A DNA stretch of 64,000 nucleotides from an uncultured Lachnospiraceae bacterium (GTDB taxonomy: Bacteria > Bacillota > Clostridia > Lachnospirales > Lachnospiraceae). This document shows, piece by piece, positions 37,488 through 64,000 of the stretch; within the stretch, counting starts at the first letter, position 1, and each line of letters opens with the position of its first letter. Both the position numbers and the translations under genes were made by a program. Below the pieces are notes generated by a model. That model searched no databases. It was not told the origin of the DNA and saw nothing but the letters and a program-made list of their open reading frames with translations. Location of the stretch: the NCBI GenBank assembly GCA_902760415.1, contig CACWGK010000002.1:18005-82004 (forward strand). Reading direction: 5' to 3'.

Positions 37488-37553
37488 ATACTCGGAGATA
37501 AAAATGTATTATTTTACGATTAAAGAAATATTTTTCGGAGGGTGCTTTTTTAT

Positions 37554-38489
37554 ATGGGAGACGTAAAACCTTGGGAAAATGTTCCAGATAAATGGAAACA
37601 ACCATCAAAAGAGTTCGAAGGACGTGTTGTTCACAACAAGAAGGAGCTTGTAAATTACAGCTCTTCTTCACATATTCGTATATGGTACAACAATCAGGCT
37701 GAAGGATACGAGATGCATTCTCACGATGCCATGGAAGCCTTTATATGTATTCAGAATAACTACGAAATACACGCCAACAACCACGAATACAACTTAAAAG
37801 AAGGCGATATTCTATTCATTCCGCCAAATATGCTTCACGAATATATTAACGATAAGGTTGGAGTTCGATTTATATATCTTATAGAAATGAATAACTTCTT
37901 CAATTCTAGGGATTATAAGAGCATCGAGCCGCTCTTCTTCAATGCATTTCTATGTAATGAAGAGACTTGTCCAGACATTTATAGTGAAGTATATAAACTC
38001 TTTATGGATATGAACTCTGTATACTTTACCAACGCAAACTTCTGGGAGACAACGGTATACAGTAAAATGTATCAGATCTTCGTAGCTATCGCGAAGCATT
38101 CAGAGAATCTGGTTAAAAATGAGACTAACAGTACATCACAGTCCATTAACAGAATCAATTCACTGCTCCGTTATGTAGATATCAATTATTCAGAAGAAAT
38201 ATCTACAGAGCAGGCCGCTGAATATACTGGATTTTCTAAGTTCCATTTTATGAGGTTATTTAAACTTCAGACTGGATATACATTCCACGATTATTTAACA
38301 CTTAAGCGTATACATATCGCTGAAGAATTGCTTGTGACCGAGAAACCTATAACAGATATTGCATTCCAGACTGGTTTCAATACTCTGCCATCCTTCTGTA
38401 GGGCCTTTAAGAAGTATACAAACTATTCTCCTAGCGAATATAAGAAACTAAGACTATCATCAAAAGCTTCAAATCATACAAACGTTTAA
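37554..38489 (+). CDS. AraC-family regulator with an N-terminal cupin sensor
   Basis: A 311-residue regulator and the only clear plus-strand gene. Residues about 40-150 are a cupin-type ligand domain (HSHDAMEAFICIQNNYEIHANNHEYNLKEGDILFIPPNMLHEY). The C-terminal hundred residues form two AraC helix-turn-helices (STEQAAEYTGFSKFHFMRLFKLQTGYTFHDYLTLKRIHIAEELL; ITDIAFQTGFNTLPSFCRAFKKYTNYSPSEYKK). I choose the ATG at 37554, about 11 bases after GGAGGG; a GTG four codons earlier overlaps that site. It lies tail to tail with the sugar ABC importer, which it likely activates in response to an imported sugar. Confidence 0.93.
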   Translation: MGDVKPWENVPDKWKQPSKEFEGRVVHNKKELVNYSSSSHIRIWYNNQAEGYEMHSHDAMEAFICIQNNYEIHANNHEYNLKEGDILFIPPNMLHEYINDKVGVRFIYLIEMNNFFNSRDYKSIEPLFFNAFLCNEETCPDIYSEVYKLFMDMNSVYFTNANFWETTVYSKMYQIFVAIAKHSENLVKNETNSTSQSINRINSLLRYVDINYSEEISTEQAAEYTGFSKFHFMRLFKLQTGYTFHDYLTLKRIHIAEELLVTEKPITDIAFQTGFNTLPSFCRAFKKYTNYSPSEYKKLRLSSKASNHTNV

Positions 38490-38538: not shown

Positions 38539-38564
38539 TAATACTTTTAACCCCACATGTATAA

Positions 38565-39455
38565 TTAACCTTTAACTCCACCAAGGGCTACGCCCGCAAT
38601 AATATATTTAGAAAGTACCAGATATACTACAATAAGTGGCAGAACTGTAAGGGTTAGTCCCATGTATACAGAACCGAACTCGGTCTTGTAAATATCACCT
38701 CTAAGAAGTGATACCATGATAGGCATTGTGTACTTCTCTTTGTTTGTAAGAAGTACAAGTGGTGTGAACAGATTGTTCCAGTTACTAACGAAGCAGAAAA
38801 TTGCCTGAGTAGCTATAGCTGGTTTCATGATAGGGAGAACTATCGTATTAAATATTCTGAACTCACCTGCACCATCAATTCTCGCAGCTTGGACAATCTC
38901 CATAGATAAAGTAGGATACAAATACTGTCTCATGAAGAATACCGTTGAAGGAGCAGCGATGGCTGGAAGAATAAGCATTGATAACTTATTTGTCATTCCG
39001 ATCTTATAAACCATCTGATAGAAACCTATCATTGTTACCTGTGCAGGTATCATCATAACTCCGACAATAAAACTGAAGAATGCTTTCTTAAGCTTCCAGT
39101 CATATGCTACCATAGCATAAGCTGTCAAAGATGAGAAGTATACTGTTAGGAGGGTCGCACCTACTGATATGATAAGTGAGTTGCCAAGTCCTACAAGAGG
39201 ATTGAAAGACTTTCCTGTCAGTATCTTAAAGTTATTAACCATGTAGGAAGATGGTATCAGAGACAGCGCATGCTGCTGAATCTGAGTTGTTGACCTAGTT
39301 GAGTTTACAATCATTACCCAGAATGGAAGTACACTAAGTACACTAAGGAATATACAAACTACATGAATTACAACCTTCATTCCATGATGTGCTTTAGGTC
39401 TATTCTGCTTTGGTACACTATCATAAGAGAGTGTTTCAGGTGTTGCTGTTGCCAT
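38565..39455 (-). CDS. Sugar ABC transporter permease (MalG/AraQ-like)
   Basis: A 296-residue permease with six hydrophobic helices and the EAA-loop region MEIVQAARIDGAGEFRIFNTIVLPIMKPA that docks to the ATPase. It belongs to the carbohydrate uptake-1 (CUT1) family for oligosaccharides. Its ATG overlaps the stop of the partner permease as TAATG. It is the last gene of the operon binding protein-permease-permease. No ATPase gene is present, so a shared MsmK-type ATPase elsewhere must serve it. Confidence 0.93.
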   Translation of the reverse strand: MATATPETLSYDSVPKQNRPKAHHGMKVVIHVVCIFLSVLSVLPFWVMIVNSTRSTTQIQQHALSLIPSSYMVNNFKILTGKSFNPLVGLGNSLIISVGATLLTVYFSSLTAYAMVAYDWKLKKAFFSFIVGVMMIPAQVTMIGFYQMVYKIGMTNKLSMLILPAIAAPSTVFFMRQYLYPTLSMEIVQAARIDGAGEFRIFNTIVLPIMKPAIATQAIFCFVSNWNNLFTPLVLLTNKEKYTMPIMVSLLRGDIYKTEFGSVYMGLTLTVLPLIVVYLVLSKYIIAGVALGGVKG

Positions 39456-49073: not shown

Positions 49074-49137
49074 GTCCCTTGTGTTTTACACTGCCATAAG
49101 AACTTCACTAATGCAGTATCATAATAACACAAGGGAC
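49074..49137 (-). promoter_or_regulatory. Long inverted repeat in the transaldolase leader
   Basis: Perfect 12-bp arms (49074-49085 and 49126-49137, GTCCCTTGTGTT) enclose a second stem (49090-49094 with 49113-49117). On the minus strand no T-tract follows, so it is not a terminator for rightward genes. If transcribed it would form a large leader hairpin just before the GGAGGG ribosome site. A TATGAT box (49118-49123) lies inside it, so it may instead be a DNA operator. Confidence 0.7.
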
Positions 49138-55378: not shown

Positions 55379-55560
55379 TATCTTAACGCAGCCTGCCCTC
55401 ACAGGCACACTTGTGAGTCACTTTTACGTCGGACGTAGGGGGGACTCATATCTTAACGCAGCCTGCCCTCACAGGCACTCTTGTGCCTGTAAGGCACCGC
55501 TGCTTGATGGTCGCTCCGCTCCGCAAGACTACTTCGTAGTCTTGGTCTGGGGTGACTCAT
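55379..55560. repeat. Composite repeat region after the sensor kinase gene
   Basis: A 37-bp direct repeat with one mismatch occurs at 55379-55415 and 55449-55485 (period 70 bp). Each copy contains a GCCTG/CAGGC hairpin. Between them lies a GAGTCAC element with core ACGTCGGACGT. To the right are a perfect hairpin with TTC loop (55525-55543) and a GTGACTC arm that runs into the kinase stop codon at 55557. Confidence 0.85.
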
Positions 55561-57029
55561 TTTCGTGGGATTCGAACTGTGACGGTGGTGCCTTCGTTGT
55601 ATGTACTTTCCACCGTTATGCCGTAGCCCACTCCATACATCATTTCAATACGTTTTTGTACATTTGCCATACCAAAGCCACGCTGTTCATCTAGAACTAT
55701 CTCTCCTGAGATTAGACCTCTCAGTCTCTCAAGTTCTTCATCTGTCATACCTATTCCAGTATCCTTAACACGGAATACCATAATATCGCCGCCGCTATCA
55801 CTTGATCTTTCCAGACGGCCTTCTACGCGGATCATACCACCACCACGCTTGTTTTTTATACCATGATATAACGCATTTTCTACAATAGGCTGCAAGGTGA
55901 GCTTCTGTATATGATTTTCATATATCGCTTCATCTATATCTATCTCATAGTCCAGAATATCCTGATAACGGTACCTCTGAATCTCGAGATAATTCTTCAC
56001 ATGTTCTCTTTCTTCCCTGACAGTAATCTCGCTCTCTCCCTTGCTCAGTGAGATTCTGAAGAAGCTAGACAGCTCCTGAATAACCTGAATTGCCTTCTGA
56101 TTTTCTCCCGCTTCCGTCATCCAGATTATAGCATCCAGTGTATTATATAAGAAATGAGGATTTATCTGTTCCTGAAGAAGTCTAAGCTCTGCATCCTTGG
56201 CTATTTCCTGCTCGCGGTGGATATCTTCTATAAGAGTCTCAATCTCTTTAACCATGCTGTTAAAACTCTCCGCCAGAGTCCTCATTTCATCATCTCGATC
56301 AGGATGATAGGATACAGTAAAATCTCCGCTGGCAAACTTCTCTGTCATTCCAACAAGTTCTGTAATTGGTTCTGTAATTCTTTGGGATAATCTCTTAGAT
56401 AAAATGTAAATTACAATAAGAATTATTATAAGAACTAGAATTATTATTCTAATAGTAGATAGAAGACTCCTTGCAACCTGACGTCGCAACATTTCCATGT
56501 TATGCGCTTCATCGTAAATGTACTTCTGAATATCATCTTGAATAAGAGACGTAAGAGTTCGAATATTCATATCTAACATCTCCATATTCTCGTCGTAATG
56601 ACCGCCCTCTTCAACATTTTCGAGAATATCATCAACTCTGGCATCAAGGATTCCAAGAAGCTTTATAAGAGCATTAAGATCACTTCGGACATTTTCCTCC
56701 GTGGTCTTATCACGAAGATTTTCAAAATGTTCAGTCGCATCACTAATAAGCGCCTTTGGATCCTCACCCTCTAGCTTTTCCTCAGCATCAGTCCAGTTAG
56801 CCGATCCCGTAATGATACGATACATCATCTCATCCATCGAGGACTTAAAGCTCATATTATATTCATTTGCGCTAGTAATATTCCGTACAAGCAGATCGTA
56901 TTCCTGGTAGAATCCGTACAGCCTGATTACAGCGATACTAAAAAGGATTATAAGAGGAATAACGCATATCCATATGTACTTGATCAGCTTGGACTGAATC
57001 TTGCTGCTTCTCTTCTTTTTTACGTTCAA
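55557..57029 (-). CDS. YesM-type sensor histidine kinase
   Basis: A 490-residue membrane kinase. A helix at about 18-38, an extracytoplasmic helical sensor (about 40-185) and a second helix (about 190-212) precede a HAMP linker. The His_kinase box QINPHFLYNTLDAIIWM (phosphoacceptor His) and an HATPase with IVENALYHGIKNK and FGMANVQKRI follow. The helical extracellular part lacks a sugar-binding fold, consistent with input from a separate binding lipoprotein, and one is encoded next downstream. It starts 4 bases after the response-regulator stop. Confidence 0.95.
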   Translation of the reverse strand: MNVKKKRSSKIQSKLIKYIWICVIPLIILFSIAVIRLYGFYQEYDLLVRNITSANEYNMSFKSSMDEMMYRIITGSANWTDAEEKLEGEDPKALISDATEHFENLRDKTTEENVRSDLNALIKLLGILDARVDDILENVEEGGHYDENMEMLDMNIRTLTSLIQDDIQKYIYDEAHNMEMLRRQVARSLLSTIRIIILVLIIILIVIYILSKRLSQRITEPITELVGMTEKFASGDFTVSYHPDRDDEMRTLAESFNSMVKEIETLIEDIHREQEIAKDAELRLLQEQINPHFLYNTLDAIIWMTEAGENQKAIQVIQELSSFFRISLSKGESEITVREEREHVKNYLEIQRYRYQDILDYEIDIDEAIYENHIQKLTLQPIVENALYHGIKNKRGGGMIRVEGRLERSSDSGGDIMVFRVKDTGIGMTDEELERLRGLISGEIVLDEQRGFGMANVQKRIEMMYGVGYGITVESTYNEGTTVTVRIPRK

Positions 57030-57033
57030 AGTC

Positions 57034-58671
57034 TTACGAGTCCTTCTTCATACGGCGGTATTCTTTCGGCGACATACCGATAGTCTTCTTAAATATATAA
57101 CTAAAATAATGCGGATCTTTGTATCCTACTTCAAATCCTATCTCAGAGGTTTTCATGGATGTACAAGTAAGTAGATCCTTCGCATTGTCCATTCTAACTT
57201 TCGTCAGGTAATCTATAAATGTCTCTCCAGTTTCTTTCCTGAAGATTGCACTGAAATGATTTGAACTGACATTTACATATGATGCAACTGTCTGAAGTGA
57301 CATTTCATCATTTTTATACTGAGCCTTAATAAACTCTCTGGCCTTATCAATAATCTCGGTATACTTCTTGTCCGACACTTGATTTCTATATTCTATAAGC
57401 ACTTTAAGGATTCTAGTGATGTAGTCCTTCGCCTTATCCACCGAGTCGACAAATCTTACAGGATCACTGAGCTCTCCCAGAATAGAAGCCGCCTTCTCAC
57501 GGCTAACATTCATGCTATCCAGAAATGCCATTCCACTGATAAGCGCCTCCATCAGAACATACTGACAGAACAGCCTCGACTCCATCGCTTCTTCACCGAG
57601 ACTTGAAAAATACTCAGATACAAGATCGTCAATCTCAACTAGAGTACCATTTCTAAGGAAATGAAATATGGTCTTCTGAGACACCATCTTTATATCTATT
57701 CCACCGATATCAAGCACGTTGCTATTACCATTTTCACCATAGAAGATAAAGCTCTCATCCAGCATATATCTCTCAGCAAATCTCTTACTAGCATCTCTAT
57801 AAGATGAGTTTACGTCACGGATTCGCTCTACTGGTTTTCCTATGGAAATGAAATAAATCCAGTCGGATTTGGTTGACATAATCTCTTTAATGATATCTAT
57901 TCCCTTCTGCGTATTCTGGTTCATATCATTTAAAGAATCAGACTTTTCTAAGAAGCAGAGAACATCGCCAACCTGCTCATAGAGATATACATTAGGACTT
58001 TTAGAGACTGTCTCTCTGATCCTGCTATATATTTCCTCACTAACGCCAGAGTACTCAGCAACATCGAACTCTTCTTCAGCTGGAACTCCCGCCTTATTCT
58101 TCGGAAATGCTTGAAAAAGCACTATTGAATAATAAGCAGCAGTTATATCTATGCCAAGTTCTCGCCCCTGTTCGAGCGACTCCTGCATAGAAAGCTTTCC
58201 ATCTATCATGTCATGAATAAACTTCTGCTTAGCCAGAGTCCTGATTTCTTCCATATCACGAAGATACTTATCCTTCGCTAGTTCGTCCTGCCGCTCCACA
58301 TTTATAGCATCAGCTATCTTTCCGAGCTCTGTAAGTAGATTTTCACCAGACACAGGCTTTAATATATATTCTTCCACGCCAATAGAGATAGCCTGCTTTG
58401 CATAGTTAAAATCATCATAACCACTCAGCACAACTATCTTAATATTGGGGATTTCCTTCTTAACCAGACGAGACAATTCAAGTCCGTCCATAAATGGCAT
58501 ACGAATATCCGTGATCAGGATATCCGGCCTTGCTTTAACGATCTTCGGAAATGCCATTTCTCCATCTCCAGCTTCGCCAACTAGCGTATAGCCATTCGCT
58601 TCCCAATTCACGGATTTCTTTATTCCCTCGCGGATTGCATATTCATCTTCTACAAGAAAAACCTTAATCAT
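57034..58671 (-). CDS. YesN-type response regulator with AraC DNA-binding domain
   Basis: A 545-residue regulator. The N-terminal receiver (VFLVEDEYAIREGI; DILITDIRMPFMDGLEL with the phosphoacceptor Asp; VLSGYDD; YILKPV) is followed by a long helical linker (about 125-430). Two C-terminal AraC helix-turn-helices end in DAKDLLTCTSMKTSEIGFEVGYKDPHYFSYIFKKTIGMSPKEYRR. It lies 35 bases after araD and is co-transcribed with the kinase and sensory lipoprotein. It is my candidate for the activator that binds the 25-bp motif found at three promoters of the pentose island. Confidence 0.95.
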   Translation of the reverse strand: MIKVFLVEDEYAIREGIKKSVNWEANGYTLVGEAGDGEMAFPKIVKARPDILITDIRMPFMDGLELSRLVKKEIPNIKIVVLSGYDDFNYAKQAISIGVEEYILKPVSGENLLTELGKIADAINVERQDELAKDKYLRDMEEIRTLAKQKFIHDMIDGKLSMQESLEQGRELGIDITAAYYSIVLFQAFPKNKAGVPAEEEFDVAEYSGVSEEIYSRIRETVSKSPNVYLYEQVGDVLCFLEKSDSLNDMNQNTQKGIDIIKEIMSTKSDWIYFISIGKPVERIRDVNSSYRDASKRFAERYMLDESFIFYGENGNSNVLDIGGIDIKMVSQKTIFHFLRNGTLVEIDDLVSEYFSSLGEEAMESRLFCQYVLMEALISGMAFLDSMNVSREKAASILGELSDPVRFVDSVDKAKDYITRILKVLIEYRNQVSDKKYTEIIDKAREFIKAQYKNDEMSLQTVASYVNVSSNHFSAIFRKETGETFIDYLTKVRMDNAKDLLTCTSMKTSEIGFEVGYKDPHYFSYIFKKTIGMSPKEYRRMKKDS

Positions 58672-59465: not shown

Positions 59466-61067
59466 TTATAATGTGTTGATTGCTGCTGTCTCTAGACTAT
59501 ATGCTGAAGTAAATGTCTTCATGAAATCATCAAATCCTTTGATTTCTTCTGGGGTGGCTGTTATAGTAGTTCCCTCTTCACCACCGAAGATAGTTCCATT
59601 TAGAAAGTCCGCAAGTGACTCAGAACCAAGAACATCTCCACCAGTCTTCATAAGATAAAGTGCAAGTACTGCCATTCCCCAAGCACCGCCTTCACCAGCA
59701 GTCTCCATTACTGTGATAGGACCTCCTGTAGCAGCTGACATGATTCTCTGACCAACCTCCTTAGTCTTAAAGAAGCCGCCATGTCCGAAAAGCTTGTCGA
59801 CCTTAACGCCCTCATCTCTAAGAAGAATATCAAGTCCAACCTTAAGTGTGCTGACTGCTGAATATAAATGAAGTCTCATAAAGTTTGCAAATGAGAAATC
59901 AGCATTTACCTTTCTTGCAAATACAGGTCTTCCCTCATCAAACCCAGTAACTGGTTCACCTGAGAAGTAGTTAAATCCCATAAGTCCACCACAATCAGGA
60001 GCACCATCTAATGCAGCTGTGAAAAGTGTAGTATATAACTTATCTGTATCTACAGGAGCACCTATAGCTTCGCTGTACTGCTTAAAGATATTAGCCCATG
60101 CATTTATATCTGATGTACAGTTGTTACAATGCACCATAGCTACATCATCACCAACTGGTGTTGTAACAACATCTATCTCTTCATGAAGAGTGTTAAGTGC
60201 ATGTTCCATAACAACCATGGCAAAGATTGAAGTTCCAGCAGATACATTTCCTGTACGTACTGCAACACTATTTGTAGCAACCATTCCTGTTCCAGCATCA
60301 CCCTCAGGTGGACACATAGGAATACCAGCCTGAAGATTACCACTCACATCAAGCTTTGCAGCACCTTCAGCAGTAAGTGTACCAGCTGACTCACCAGCGA
60401 GTCTAACTTCTGGAAGGATTCCTCTTATATTCCAAGTAACACCCTTCTGCATAAGGATCTTATCATACTTATCCAGATACTCTTCGTTATAATTTCTTGT
60501 CTTACTATCGATAGGGAACATACCAGATGCATCGCCTACGCCAAGCACCTTCTCACCTGATAACTGCCAATGAATATATCCAGCAAGAGTTGTAAAGAAA
60601 GCTATATCCTTTACATGATCCTCTTTATTCAGAATAGCCTGATGAAGATGAGCTATACTCCATCTCTGTGGGATATTGAAACCAAACTCCTGAGTAAGCT
60701 CCTTAGCAGCCTGCTCTGTGATAGTATTTCTCCAAGTTCTAAATGGAACAAGCAGATCACCACCTTCATTAAAGGCCATATAACCGTGCATCATAGCACT
60801 AAATCCTATAGCGCCTGTTGTCTTGATTACAGTGTCATACTGCTCTTTAACATTTTTAAGAAGATCAGCATAAGCATCCTGCAGACCATTCCATATCATA
60901 TCAAGACTATAAGTCCATACACCATTTTCAAACTGGTTCTCCCAGCCATGTCCACCCTGAGCAAGAGGCTTACCACTTTCATCAACTAGCACAGCCTTGA
61001 TTCTTGTAGAACCAAACTCTATTCCTATTGCAGTCTTTCCAGCCTCAATAATCTCTTTAACTCCCAT
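59466..61067 (-). CDS. araB: FGGY-family kinase, probable L-ribulokinase
   Basis: A 533-residue sugar kinase: AIGIEFGSTRIKAVLVDESG at the N-terminus, FSAMMHGYMAF, a PPEGDAGTGMVATNSVAVRTGNVSAGTSIFAM central region holding the candidate catalytic Asp, and TAGEGGAWGMAVLALYL near the C-terminus. These motifs differ from classic AraB and resemble, from memory, the second ribulokinase type of clostridia (AraK). Its place next to araD supports L-ribulose as substrate. It has its own promoter (61108-61135), and a structured RNA candidate lies upstream. The exact subfamily is uncertain. Confidence 0.8.
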   Translation of the reverse strand: MGVKEIIEAGKTAIGIEFGSTRIKAVLVDESGKPLAQGGHGWENQFENGVWTYSLDMIWNGLQDAYADLLKNVKEQYDTVIKTTGAIGFSAMMHGYMAFNEGGDLLVPFRTWRNTITEQAAKELTQEFGFNIPQRWSIAHLHQAILNKEDHVKDIAFFTTLAGYIHWQLSGEKVLGVGDASGMFPIDSKTRNYNEEYLDKYDKILMQKGVTWNIRGILPEVRLAGESAGTLTAEGAAKLDVSGNLQAGIPMCPPEGDAGTGMVATNSVAVRTGNVSAGTSIFAMVVMEHALNTLHEEIDVVTTPVGDDVAMVHCNNCTSDINAWANIFKQYSEAIGAPVDTDKLYTTLFTAALDGAPDCGGLMGFNYFSGEPVTGFDEGRPVFARKVNADFSFANFMRLHLYSAVSTLKVGLDILLRDEGVKVDKLFGHGGFFKTKEVGQRIMSAATGGPITVMETAGEGGAWGMAVLALYLMKTGGDVLGSESLADFLNGTIFGGEEGTTITATPEEIKGFDDFMKTFTSAYSLETAAINTL

Positions 61068-61135: not shown

Positions 61136-61195
61136 AGTTTTGGAAAATCAATTTTTTTCTTTATTTTGTATGTTTTTTTACGTTAAAAAACAAAA

Positions 61196-61371
61196 GAAAA
61201 AACGAGGCTAACTAAAACCTCGTTTTTCCTTTATACACTTATCAAATACTCCCAAAGGAAGGGATGTAGCTTAGGAAACTACCAGTGAAAATCTAAGTAA
61301 TTAATAACACCCCTGTCATACAAATACTTTTAACCTTCACATGGTCTATAATCGTTTCCTTCACTGAAGCT
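61196..61371 (-). ncRNA. Structured RNA candidate between GH43 and ribulokinase genes
   Basis: A promoter-like pair (61377-61405) would start an RNA near 61371. Six nested helices can be drawn by hand: 61367-61372/61267-61272, 61354-61359/61274-61279, 61342-61345/61281-61284, 61336-61340/61285-61289, 61325-61329/61295-61299 and 61314-61319/61304-61309, closing a GGGG loop. An intrinsic terminator follows (arms 61197-61207 and 61218-61227). No reading frame or known riboswitch motif is evident. It could be a free small RNA, including a 6S-like RNA, or a leader/attenuator of the ribulokinase operon, whose start codon is about 130 bases beyond the terminator. Confidence 0.6.
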
Positions 61372-61376
61372 ATAGT

Positions 61377-61433
61377 AACATAGGTTTTCTAGAAAGACTT
61401 TTCAAAAATTGTCATTTTGTTTACAAATAATGC
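61377..61433 (-). promoter_or_regulatory. Promoter with pentose-island motif ahead of the structured RNA
   Basis: The 25-bp motif (61409-61433; core TTTGTAAACAA on the minus strand, ending AAATGACAA) lies 3 bases upstream of TTGAAA (61400-61405), which is 17 bases from TATGTT (61377-61382). The arrangement is the same as before the GH43 gene at 62533-62590. Confidence 0.75.
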
Positions 61434-61485
61434 TCATATTTTAGTTTTTATATCAAAAATATGCGTTTCTAGAATTAAACCTTAT

Positions 61486-62469
61486 TTACTTCTGATGATC
61501 ATAAGGATGAATAGTTTCAATAGTACCATCCTCAGCAATATTAAGCTTTGTATACTTAACAGTTCTCTTATGAGCACAGCCACCTGACATCTCAGCGTCA
61601 TGGTAGAACAGATACCACTCACCATCGATTTCAACGATAGAATGATGTGTTGTCCATCCAATAACTGGCTCCATAATTCTGCCTCTATATGTAAATGGGC
61701 CTGCAGGATTATCACCTTCAGCATAGCAGAGATAATGTGTTGTACCTGTAGAATATGAAAGATAATACTTACCGTTGAACTTATGTACCCATGGTCCCTC
61801 GAAGTATCTTCTATCCTCATCGCCAGCCTTGATAGGCTCACCATTTTCGTCAAGGATTTCAATCATCTTAGGTGTAGTCTTAAATGCTGTAAGATCTTCA
61901 TTAAACTCAGCAAAAATTGGGCCAAGTGACTTATCATCGCCTTCTGGACGTCTCTCATCTGGATTAAACTTTCCTGACTGCCACATCTCGAGCTGTCCGC
62001 CCCAAAGTCCACCATTATAGCAATAGATTCTTCCATCATCATCAAGAAGAACTGCTGGATCTATACTGTAGCTACCCTGGATATAATTCTCCTGAGCAAC
62101 AAATGGGCCAACAGGTGAATCAGATACAGCAACACCTATACGGAATATATCATCCTTATCCTTTGCAGGGAATACAAGATAATACTTATCATTTACCTTA
62201 ACAGCATCAGGTGCCCACATCTGTCTAGAAACCCATGGAACATCCTTCTCATGAAGAGCAACACCATTATCTACGCATGGGCTATCAAGGGAATCCATAG
62301 AAAGGACATGATAATCCTCCATTCTATACTGCTCGCCGTCATCATCTTCTTCCATATCTATATCCATATCATGTGATGGATAGATATAAATCTTACCGTC
62401 AAATACATGTGCTGATGGATCTGCTGTATAAATATGCTCCACCAATGGCTTTCTTTCATTATCTCTCAT
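61486..62469 (-). CDS. Cytoplasmic GH43 arabinofuranosidase/xylosidase
   Basis: A 327-residue five-bladed beta-propeller glycosidase. The catalytic base Asp is in TADPSAHVF, the pKa-modulating Asp in YSIDPAVLLDD, and the acid Glu in YFEGPWVHK, all intact. No signal peptide is present, so it acts on imported oligosaccharides, releasing L-arabinose or xylose. The length fits a single-domain GH43 without the extra C-terminal beta sandwich of beta-xylosidases. A promoter with the pentose-island motif precedes it. The precise linkage specificity cannot be read. Confidence 0.9.
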   Translation of the reverse strand: MRDNERKPLVEHIYTADPSAHVFDGKIYIYPSHDMDIDMEEDDDGEQYRMEDYHVLSMDSLDSPCVDNGVALHEKDVPWVSRQMWAPDAVKVNDKYYLVFPAKDKDDIFRIGVAVSDSPVGPFVAQENYIQGSYSIDPAVLLDDDGRIYCYNGGLWGGQLEMWQSGKFNPDERRPEGDDKSLGPIFAEFNEDLTAFKTTPKMIEILDENGEPIKAGDEDRRYFEGPWVHKFNGKYYLSYSTGTTHYLCYAEGDNPAGPFTYRGRIMEPVIGWTTHHSIVEIDGEWYLFYHDAEMSGGCAHKRTVKYTKLNIAEDGTIETIHPYDHQK

Positions 62470-62532
62470 AATGCCCCTCTTTTCTTAAGCGATTAACCGC
62501 TTTGTCTTCTTATTCTAATACACAGTAATATT

Positions 62533-62590
62533 ATCATAAAGATATTTGCTAATACTTTTCATATCTTGCGATTTTCTTTACAAATGTTGC
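62533..62590 (-). promoter_or_regulatory. GH43 promoter with pentose-island motif
   Basis: The 25-bp motif (62566-62590; core TTTGTAAAGAA, a one-base variant) lies 3 bases upstream of ATGAAA (62557-62562), which is 18 bases from TATGAT (62533-62538). A start near 62526 gives a leader of about 57 bases, which holds a small palindrome (AAGCG/CGCTT at 62487-62502). Confidence 0.75.
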
Positions 62591-62608
62591 CATAATAAGC
62601 AAAAGCGA

Positions 62609-63754: not shown

Positions 63755-63825
63755 CAGGGGGTAAGGGAATCGAACCCCTTCCAAAGGTTTTGGAGACCCC
63801 TATCATACCGGTAGACCAACCCCCT
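63755..63825 (-). tRNA. trnW: tRNA-Trp (CCA anticodon)
   Basis: A 71-base cloverleaf read on the minus strand: a 7-bp acceptor stem (AGGGGGT with ACCCCCT, G discriminator), an anticodon arm GGGGT-CTCCAAA-ACCTT giving anticodon CCA, and a T arm with GGTTCGATTCC. The 3' CCA is not encoded. It begins only about 6 bases after the T-tract of the rRNA terminator. Confidence 0.97.
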
Positions 63826-63836
63826 ATTTATAAAAA

Positions 63837-63860
63837 ACTCGATCTATAAATAGATCGAGT
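63837..63860 (-). terminator. Intrinsic terminator-like hairpin between 23S rRNA and tRNA-Trp
   Basis: A perfect palindrome with 11-bp arms (ACTCGATCTAT and its complement) and a minimal loop is followed on the minus strand by six Ts, directly ahead of the tRNA. Confidence 0.85.
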
Positions 63861-63939
63861 ATTTAATACTTTTATTGTACTTTCAAAACTTCATACAGTT
63901 AATACTTTTATCAAGACCTTACGTATCTTCCTAAATCTA

Positions 63940-64000
63940 GGAAAAGCTCACGACCTATTAGTACTCCTCAGCTTAACATGTTACCATGCTTACACCCAGA
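63940..64000 (-). rRNA. rrl: 23S rRNA, 3' end (partial)
   Basis: Read on the minus strand, the segment matches the conserved 3' end of bacterial 23S rRNA (GGTGTAAGCATGG...TTAAGCTGAGG...TACTAATAGGTCG...GAGCTTTTCC). Only about 60 bases are inside the window. No 5S gene follows before tRNA-Trp. Confidence 0.93.

Follow-up and report, generated by a model that had tools for sequence, protein, structure and literature searches.

Our results suggest that the gap between the GH43 and ribulokinase genes in the window (i.e., the whole stretch of 64,000 nucleotides from an uncultured Lachnospiraceae bacterium that was analysed here) probably encodes a stand-alone, terminated RNA that acts as a pentose-regulon sponge of a conserved trans-acting sRNA. 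The computed basis of this reading is a promoter with a terminator, a complementarity to the sRNA, the conservation of this complementarity and its recurrence in untranslated regions (UTRs) of the regulon; expression, pairing in the cell, titration, the order of pairing and the direction of the relationship (sponge and not target) are what we infer from it. The original prediction of a structured RNA at this place is confirmed as an observation, and its striking part is the complementarity to another sRNA, not the fold; this complementarity had been missed because it is not visible from the window alone. The function of the window RNA most likely lies in its sequence complement.

The gap has a size of 418 bases, between GH43 (61486-62469, minus strand) and ribulokinase (59466-61067, minus strand), and its minus strand displays a promoter-like stretch, then a folded stretch of ~180 nt with a GGGG loop and then a strong terminator. 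The features of the locus are the following:

61394-61436, minus strand: pentose-regulon promoter motif upstream of the candidate sponge RNA, with two GCAA-type direct repeats ~21 bases apart (matrix score 22.4), kept at two orthologous loci
61372-61378, minus strand: -10 box TTACTAT of the candidate sponge RNA, read in the sequence, with the same box at the orthologous loci and in many GH3 promoters of relatives
61193-61371, minus strand: candidate stand-alone sponge RNA of ~180 nt, proposed from its fold, its conservation in three species and its complementarity to a conserved sRNA
61358-61365, minus strand: first copy of the anti-sRNA seed, AGTGAAGG, conserved in three of three species
61310-61340, minus strand: main anti-sRNA site, an exact 19-nt linker complement running on to CAGGGG, predicted to pair with both single-stranded parts of the sRNA
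61310-61313, minus strand: GGGG of the apical loop, facing the CCCCC of the sRNA (fold, three-species consensus and complex prediction)
61274-61291, minus strand: 3' arm of the hairpin in which the anti-sRNA site is sequestered in the free RNA (fold and three-species consensus)
61193-61232, minus strand: intrinsic terminator with a 17-pair stem followed by a U-rich tail, conserved at the orthologous loci
59466-61067, minus strand: ribulokinase araB, the downstream neighbour (Pfam FGGY, FGGY carbohydrate kinase)
62551-62593, minus strand: pentose promoter motif of GH43 (score 36.9)

Transcription of the candidate sponge RNA would be expected to start near 61371-61365. The promoter motif, said in the original prediction to be common to the gap, GH43 and tal, was assessed with a matrix derived from GH3 loci of other species (21 distinct promoter windows) and scanned over the 64 kb. 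Only four pentose sites emerged, upstream of GH43 (36.9 bits), tal (32.0), the sponge RNA (22.4) and a sugar ABC transporter (18.6), so that all three sites of the claim score far above the background (1.3 for the next-best site of the window and -3.9 for the best of five block shuffles). Moreover, no open reading frame of at least 80 aa was found within the gap on either strand, which, together with the promoter motif and the intrinsic terminator, is what would be expected of a stand-alone small RNA gene. An AraC-type regulator (37542-38489) and a response regulator/kinase pair (55557-58671) are candidate binders of the motif by their position only. At the end of the window (63755-64000) lies a tRNA gene on the minus strand, and this end also presumably resembles ribosomal RNA sequence.

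The fold of the RNA including its terminator (z -4.9) was better than in 200 of 200 shuffles, and the nested helices, the GGGG loop and the terminator of the original prediction stand at fitting coordinates. Without the terminator the signal is modest (z -2.3, with 3 of 200 shuffles equally good), and the equivalent terminator-less stretches at the two orthologous loci gave z values of -0.4 (AC2031) and -4.3; much of the structural signal is carried by the terminator. Covariation, the check that had been proposed, is weak for the structure, with 1 both-sided pair of 51 in three homologues, which are too few; at the level of sequence, GTGAAGGTTAAAAGTATTT (19 nt) and, one base on, TATGACAGGGGTGTT remained unchanged in all three species, while the 3' arm varies. 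In the predicted fold of the free RNA, common to the three species, the anti-sRNA site is sequestered in a hairpin with GGGG in the loop. The 5' side holds two copies of one seed (AGTGAAGG at 61365 and GTGAAGG at 61340), each able to pair with the same 3' arm, and the two mutually exclusive folds claimed earlier trace back to these copies competing for one arm; no evidence for a switch between the folds was found.

A DNA search recovered the window RNA locus in 3 of 117 genomes, namely the window's own, G005 (AC2031) and G042 (taken as NE2001, with which its sRNA stretch is identical). The isolates AC2031 and NE2001 therefore appear to carry both RNAs, NE2001 by way of this identical sRNA sequence. 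At the Rfam gathering score, the only hit in the window is a tRNA and the window RNA has no match; hits up to an E-value of 10 stayed far below the cut-off (STnc240, mir-627, L20 leader and others), and no riboswitch or leader class reached the cut-off for the gap RNA. The claim of an own pentose-type promoter and a terminator without a known class is thus upheld, which agrees with the option, named in the original prediction, of a small RNA that would be induced along with pentose genes. The suggestion of a 6S-like RNA was not borne out by Rfam, as the 6S covariance model gave no gathering-score hit in the window and no 6S entry occurs among the 16 weak hits around the gap. The partner sRNA likewise has no Rfam match at the gathering score, and RoxS/RsaE, a family that we take to have an Rfam entry, was not among its five hits up to an E-value of 10. 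Both RNAs are new to Rfam, and no publication on this pair was found in literature searches, whose reach into subscription papers was limited.

When the window RNA was searched against its own genome, a second place appeared (C10:9886-9917, 91% identity over ~30 nt), and 38 of the 117 genomes searched (own included) contained a match, most of them at a similar place. This place corresponds to a separate RNA gene of opposite sense:

C10:9851-9957 of the window's own genome, G000 (= L002:1466-1572), plus strand: partner sRNA gene

It is laid out as a -10-like box, GCCCCCUG, a hairpin, an unpaired linker AAUCAUAUAAAUACUUUUAACCUUCACUAAU and a terminator, with two single-stranded parts (a 5' CCCCC tract and the linker of ~31 nt) flanking the short hairpin. 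In 29 aligned sequences, 30 of the 31 linker columns are invariant, partly by choice since these sequences were found through the linker. The helices, by contrast, show compensatory variation: both sides have changed in 10 of 28 pairs, with 37 such cells compared to 9.3 in shuffles and a score that none of 500 shuffles reached, a test that kinship of the sequences can inflate. In addition, 97% of cells are paired vs 43-57% when the alignment is slid (no slid version reaching the score), and G-U pairs of the first hairpin with G on the 5' side agree with this strand. A covariance model detected the sRNA with at least 54 bits in 54 of 61 genomes of the genus, the seven others comprising one weak extra match and six genomes without any. 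The 22-nt linker word is kept within two mismatches in 41 of the 61 genomes; the remaining 13 sRNA-bearing genomes have a more diverged linker, yet all of them retain the 12-nt seed UUAACCUUCACU in place. Altogether, the partner appears to be a genuine RNA gene. Outside the genus, it is clear in two further genera of a 397-genome family sample, where the model gave ten matches: two in the genus, two clear ones elsewhere (G233 and G174) and six remaining, among which G406 (45.5 bits) is possibly a divergent copy and five look like chance on reading. Besides the sRNA itself, no second linker site within three mismatches was found in the two other sRNA-bearing genera (two genomes).

The promoters of the sRNA did not show the pentose motif (best matrix score 1.4). 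Upstream of the sRNA (e.g., in L002 and L018), many species share a word like TTTGATA..A.TT.GCA..TTTTTGTAG that gives no pentose-matrix score and is possibly the site of another regulator. In L002 (562-1302 and 1677-2903), L078, L079 and L080, the sRNA lies between histidine-kinase-like and AraC-like regulator genes, both named by resemblance. L079 and L080 (G003 and G031) carry a variant without the 5' CCCCC tract and the hairpin, in which the -10-like box abuts the linker; in G048 (L078/L171), the linker has one change (UUUUGACC) and a row of near-copies of the terminator hairpin lies downstream of the sRNA.

The complementarity between the two RNAs is extended. Indeed, GTGAAGGTTAAAAGTATTT (61340-61322) is a 19-nt exact complement of the linker, G at 61321 forms a G-U pair, and TATGACAGGGG extends the match; beyond the sRNA hairpin, CAGGGG pairs with CCCCUG, so that the predicted duplex leaves this hairpin standing. 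Complex prediction found the same arrangement in the three species owning both RNAs, with gains over the free RNAs of -24.5, -29.3 and -21.3 kcal/mol, whereas 150 random window stretches of similar length averaged -5.6 (sd 2.9, minimum -14.4). Over both strands of the window, the best linker duplex falls at the window RNA (-37.6 vs -21.2 at the next unrelated place), and in each of the three species the duplex z is about -10, reached by none of 100 shuffles. The calculations thus place an extended pairing on an unpaired part of an sRNA encoded elsewhere, and the pairing site is conserved with its partner in relatives, both in the three species with both RNAs and as recurrent sites in regulon UTRs.

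Searching the 64 kb on both strands for linker complements of at least 11 exact nt returned three places only, the window RNA (19 nt), the 3'UTR of a sugar ABC permease (13 nt, at 38552) and the tal leader (11 nt, at 49113), all of which fall in transcripts assigned to pentose-type promoters:

49103-49113, minus strand: tal leader site, an 11-nt exact complement of the sRNA linker (tal promoter motif at 49186-49144, score 32.0)
38540-38552, minus strand: 3'UTR site of the sugar ABC permease (38565-39455), a 13-nt exact linker complement directly before a terminator-like hairpin
42224-42182: promoter motif of the sugar ABC transporter (matrix score 18.6)

The last two would be linked by one transcript spanning 42182-38500. 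The tal and permease matches count only by their location, since the number of places is unremarkable next to shuffled linkers (a mean of 1.55 exact matches of at least 11 nt per window, and 9.5% giving one of at least 13 nt); what is remarkable is the assignment of all three to pentose-type promoters. Among the 3'UTRs of permease orthologues (at least 87% identity, the window's included), 14 of 21 readable ones contain at least 11 exact bases and 7 have no site, compared to 0.5% of 600 random stretches and none of 7 distant permeases; 30 permease loci had been fetched, the flank being too short in G045 and G044 and a second G053 copy being left out. The part of the linker complement that is used differs between the window clade and the others, being shifted with partial overlap (GGTTAAAAGTATT or TTAGTGAAGGTTAAA), and the 3'UTRs of G021, G026 and G050 (the last two among the 14) hold three to five seeds before the terminator.

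In relatives, such sites occur from one to six times in some GH3 leaders. A duplex z of -6 or below, which none of 100 shuffles reached, was found for 10 of 31 GH3 leaders, four of these ten having three to six seeds; the other 21 lie above -6, of which 20 are above -3.5. The tandem-seed pattern was counted 19 times, spread over 8 of 61 genomes, and the reversed pattern never, adjacent seeds being often 20 to 25 bases apart. Moreover, GGGG begins within 5 nt downstream of 9 of the 12 distinct long sites, as predicted by the CCCCC past the sRNA hairpin. Note that related genomes are non-independent and that fewer events must therefore lie behind these site counts; the stand-alone RNA, the GH3 leaders and the permease 3'UTR are distinct from one another in location. 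In the genus, the 12-mer AGTGAAGGTTAA has 97 matches vs 23 for the reversed word, and 26 isolated matches lie outside sRNAs and arrays. Among 20 of these that were examined, 7 are permease 3'UTRs and 13 are others, mostly within coding sequence and with no shared gene seen, and one of the six further isolated matches is in a GH3 leader. Against the start regions of the window, the sRNA gave weak hits only: the best pentose hit of its 5' part is the GH43 start region (-16.0, fourth of 47 overall), not kept in NE2001. The GH43 ribosome site AGGGGCATT (62470-62480, minus strand) matches AAUGCCCC of the sRNA of the same genome over 8 pairs, which is also lost in NE2001.

We propose that the window RNA is probably transcribed upon activation of the pentose regulon. 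Its GGGG loop would be presented first to the CCCCC tract of the sRNA; pairing would then spread via CAGGGG, skip the sRNA hairpin and continue through the linker (~31 pairs), opening the sponge hairpin. During pentose use, the sRNA would likely be titrated or degraded and its targets freed. Other transcripts of the regulon (the ABC-permease 3'UTR, the tal leader and, for some relatives, GH3 leaders bearing as many as six seeds) would join the sink. We favor the sponge reading because of the wide distribution and conservation of the sRNA, the absence of the pentose motif from its promoter, and the location of the complements in a non-coding RNA and at UTR positions that are often distant from the ribosome site; this reading implies that pentose induction would lower the amount of free sRNA. 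The wider proposal, in which a pentose-induced non-coding RNA, leaders and a transporter 3'UTR jointly sink one conserved sRNA across the regulon, is more tentative, and we hold it to be nearly evenly balanced, on the doubtful side.

The sites could also be ordinary sRNA targets, with pairing altering the decay of pentose UTRs (by cleavage or by end protection) and the window RNA being a by-product or an extra target. The sites in 5'UTRs and just before 3' terminators, where duplexes could guide or block nucleases, would suit this explanation, as would the tal leader site; however, the window RNA seems non-coding, is terminated before araB and holds the window's longest exact complement, and arrays of three to six seeds are more than one-to-one targeting needs, which makes this explanation unlikely. 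An attenuator of araB, a riboswitch and a 6S RNA are each less likely than a sponge. For a leader in which the sRNA or a ligand, once bound, would alter terminator read-through into araBD, as the original prediction envisaged for the ribulokinase operon, speak the shared strand, the terminator before araB and the competing folds of the 5' side. Yet araB, matched in 48 of the 61 genomes of the genus, does not need the window RNA, since 27 of 29 other araB upstream regions (some shortened by contig ends) are without it. In addition, a promoter-like site (61146-61119, consensus match only) lies between the sponge terminator and araB, NE2001 lacks the short stem-loop between the hairpin and the terminator, and no riboswitch or leader family reached the cut-off. 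From the absence in these upstream regions and the promoter-like site, we judge that the window RNA is not an araB leader and would exert no cis control of araB; read-through control is very improbable, and a new riboswitch or leader-attenuator class is still conceivable.

Two further explanations concern the nature of the repeated motif itself. The plus strand of the gap resembles the sRNA minus its hairpin, and the changes among 27 distinct sites show no G-U-compatible bias (A to G 16, A to T 28, A to C 9), as would be the case if the element were a second copy of the sRNA gene on the plus strand, similar by descent and not as an antisense. In contrast, the promoter motif and the terminator suit the minus strand and the pentose regulon, the conserved sRNA hairpin is precisely the missing part, the part of the linker complement found in permease 3'UTRs shifts from clade to clade with partial overlap, and the plus-strand fold of the gap gives a z of only -1.5; we regard such a copy as extremely improbable. 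Least credible is a protein-binding site in DNA or RNA instead of RNA-RNA pairing: the 20 to 25 bases between many adjacent seeds could reflect such a site, but in GH3 leaders the motif follows the -10 box and belongs to the transcribed sequence, the GGGG next to 9 of 12 long sites is predicted by the CCCCC of the sRNA, and the complement of the motif lies within a conserved and covarying sRNA gene.

Taken as a sponge and its partner, the findings describe two RNAs without an Rfam family, a conserved sRNA of a rumen genus (also present in two further genera) and its likely sponge, together with a set of anti-sRNA sites, often tandem, in mRNAs for hemicellulose use, whose place differs between species and which include arrays of three to six seeds. 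If the regulon-wide proposal is true, the level of pentose transcription would itself set the amount of free sRNA, and bacteria would have an equivalent of competing-RNA networks that was rebuilt at loci differing between species. Since isolates appear to carry both RNAs, joint titration of an sRNA by the mRNAs of one pathway is testable in fibre-digesting bacteria.

To our knowledge, bacterial sponges are encoded at a single locus and carry one or a few sites. By kind, the window RNA is a sponge RNA, and the regulon-wide spread of the sites, often in tandem, is its unusual part. Like RoxS/RsaE, C-rich sRNAs of Firmicutes, the partner sRNA has a C-rich tract, but it matches neither that family nor any other of Rfam. 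RosA and the chb/ChiX sponge are precedents for the sponge reading. RosA of Bacillus subtilis is described as a stand-alone RNA of ~229 nt that sponges RoxS and FsrA; it has its own promoter and terminator, and its G-rich regions pair with C-rich ones in a metabolic sRNA; its control is carbon-linked, its counterpart RsaI being described as 'also' CcpA-regulated (PMC8216469). The window RNA resembles RosA in its own promoter and terminator, its predicted G-rich to C-rich pairing, its Firmicute host and its presumably carbon-linked control, and differs in a long two-part match (~31 pairs, 19 of them contiguous and exact), in its partner sRNA, in its pentose-regulon promoter and in the recurrence of its sites in the mRNAs of that regulon. 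The chbBC spacer, as presented in the review PMC8383071, is a chitosugar-induced sponge of ChiX, intercistronic in an enterobacterial operon mRNA; it would share with the window RNA the titration of an sRNA by a sugar-induced transcript, whereas the latter is free-standing and accompanied by sites in several UTRs. SroC, a released 3'UTR-derived sponge of GcvB tied to an ABC-transporter transcript according to the same review (PMC8383071), parallels the sponge sequence linked here to an ABC-transporter transcript through the permease 3'UTR, while the window RNA, unlike SroC, has its own promoter.
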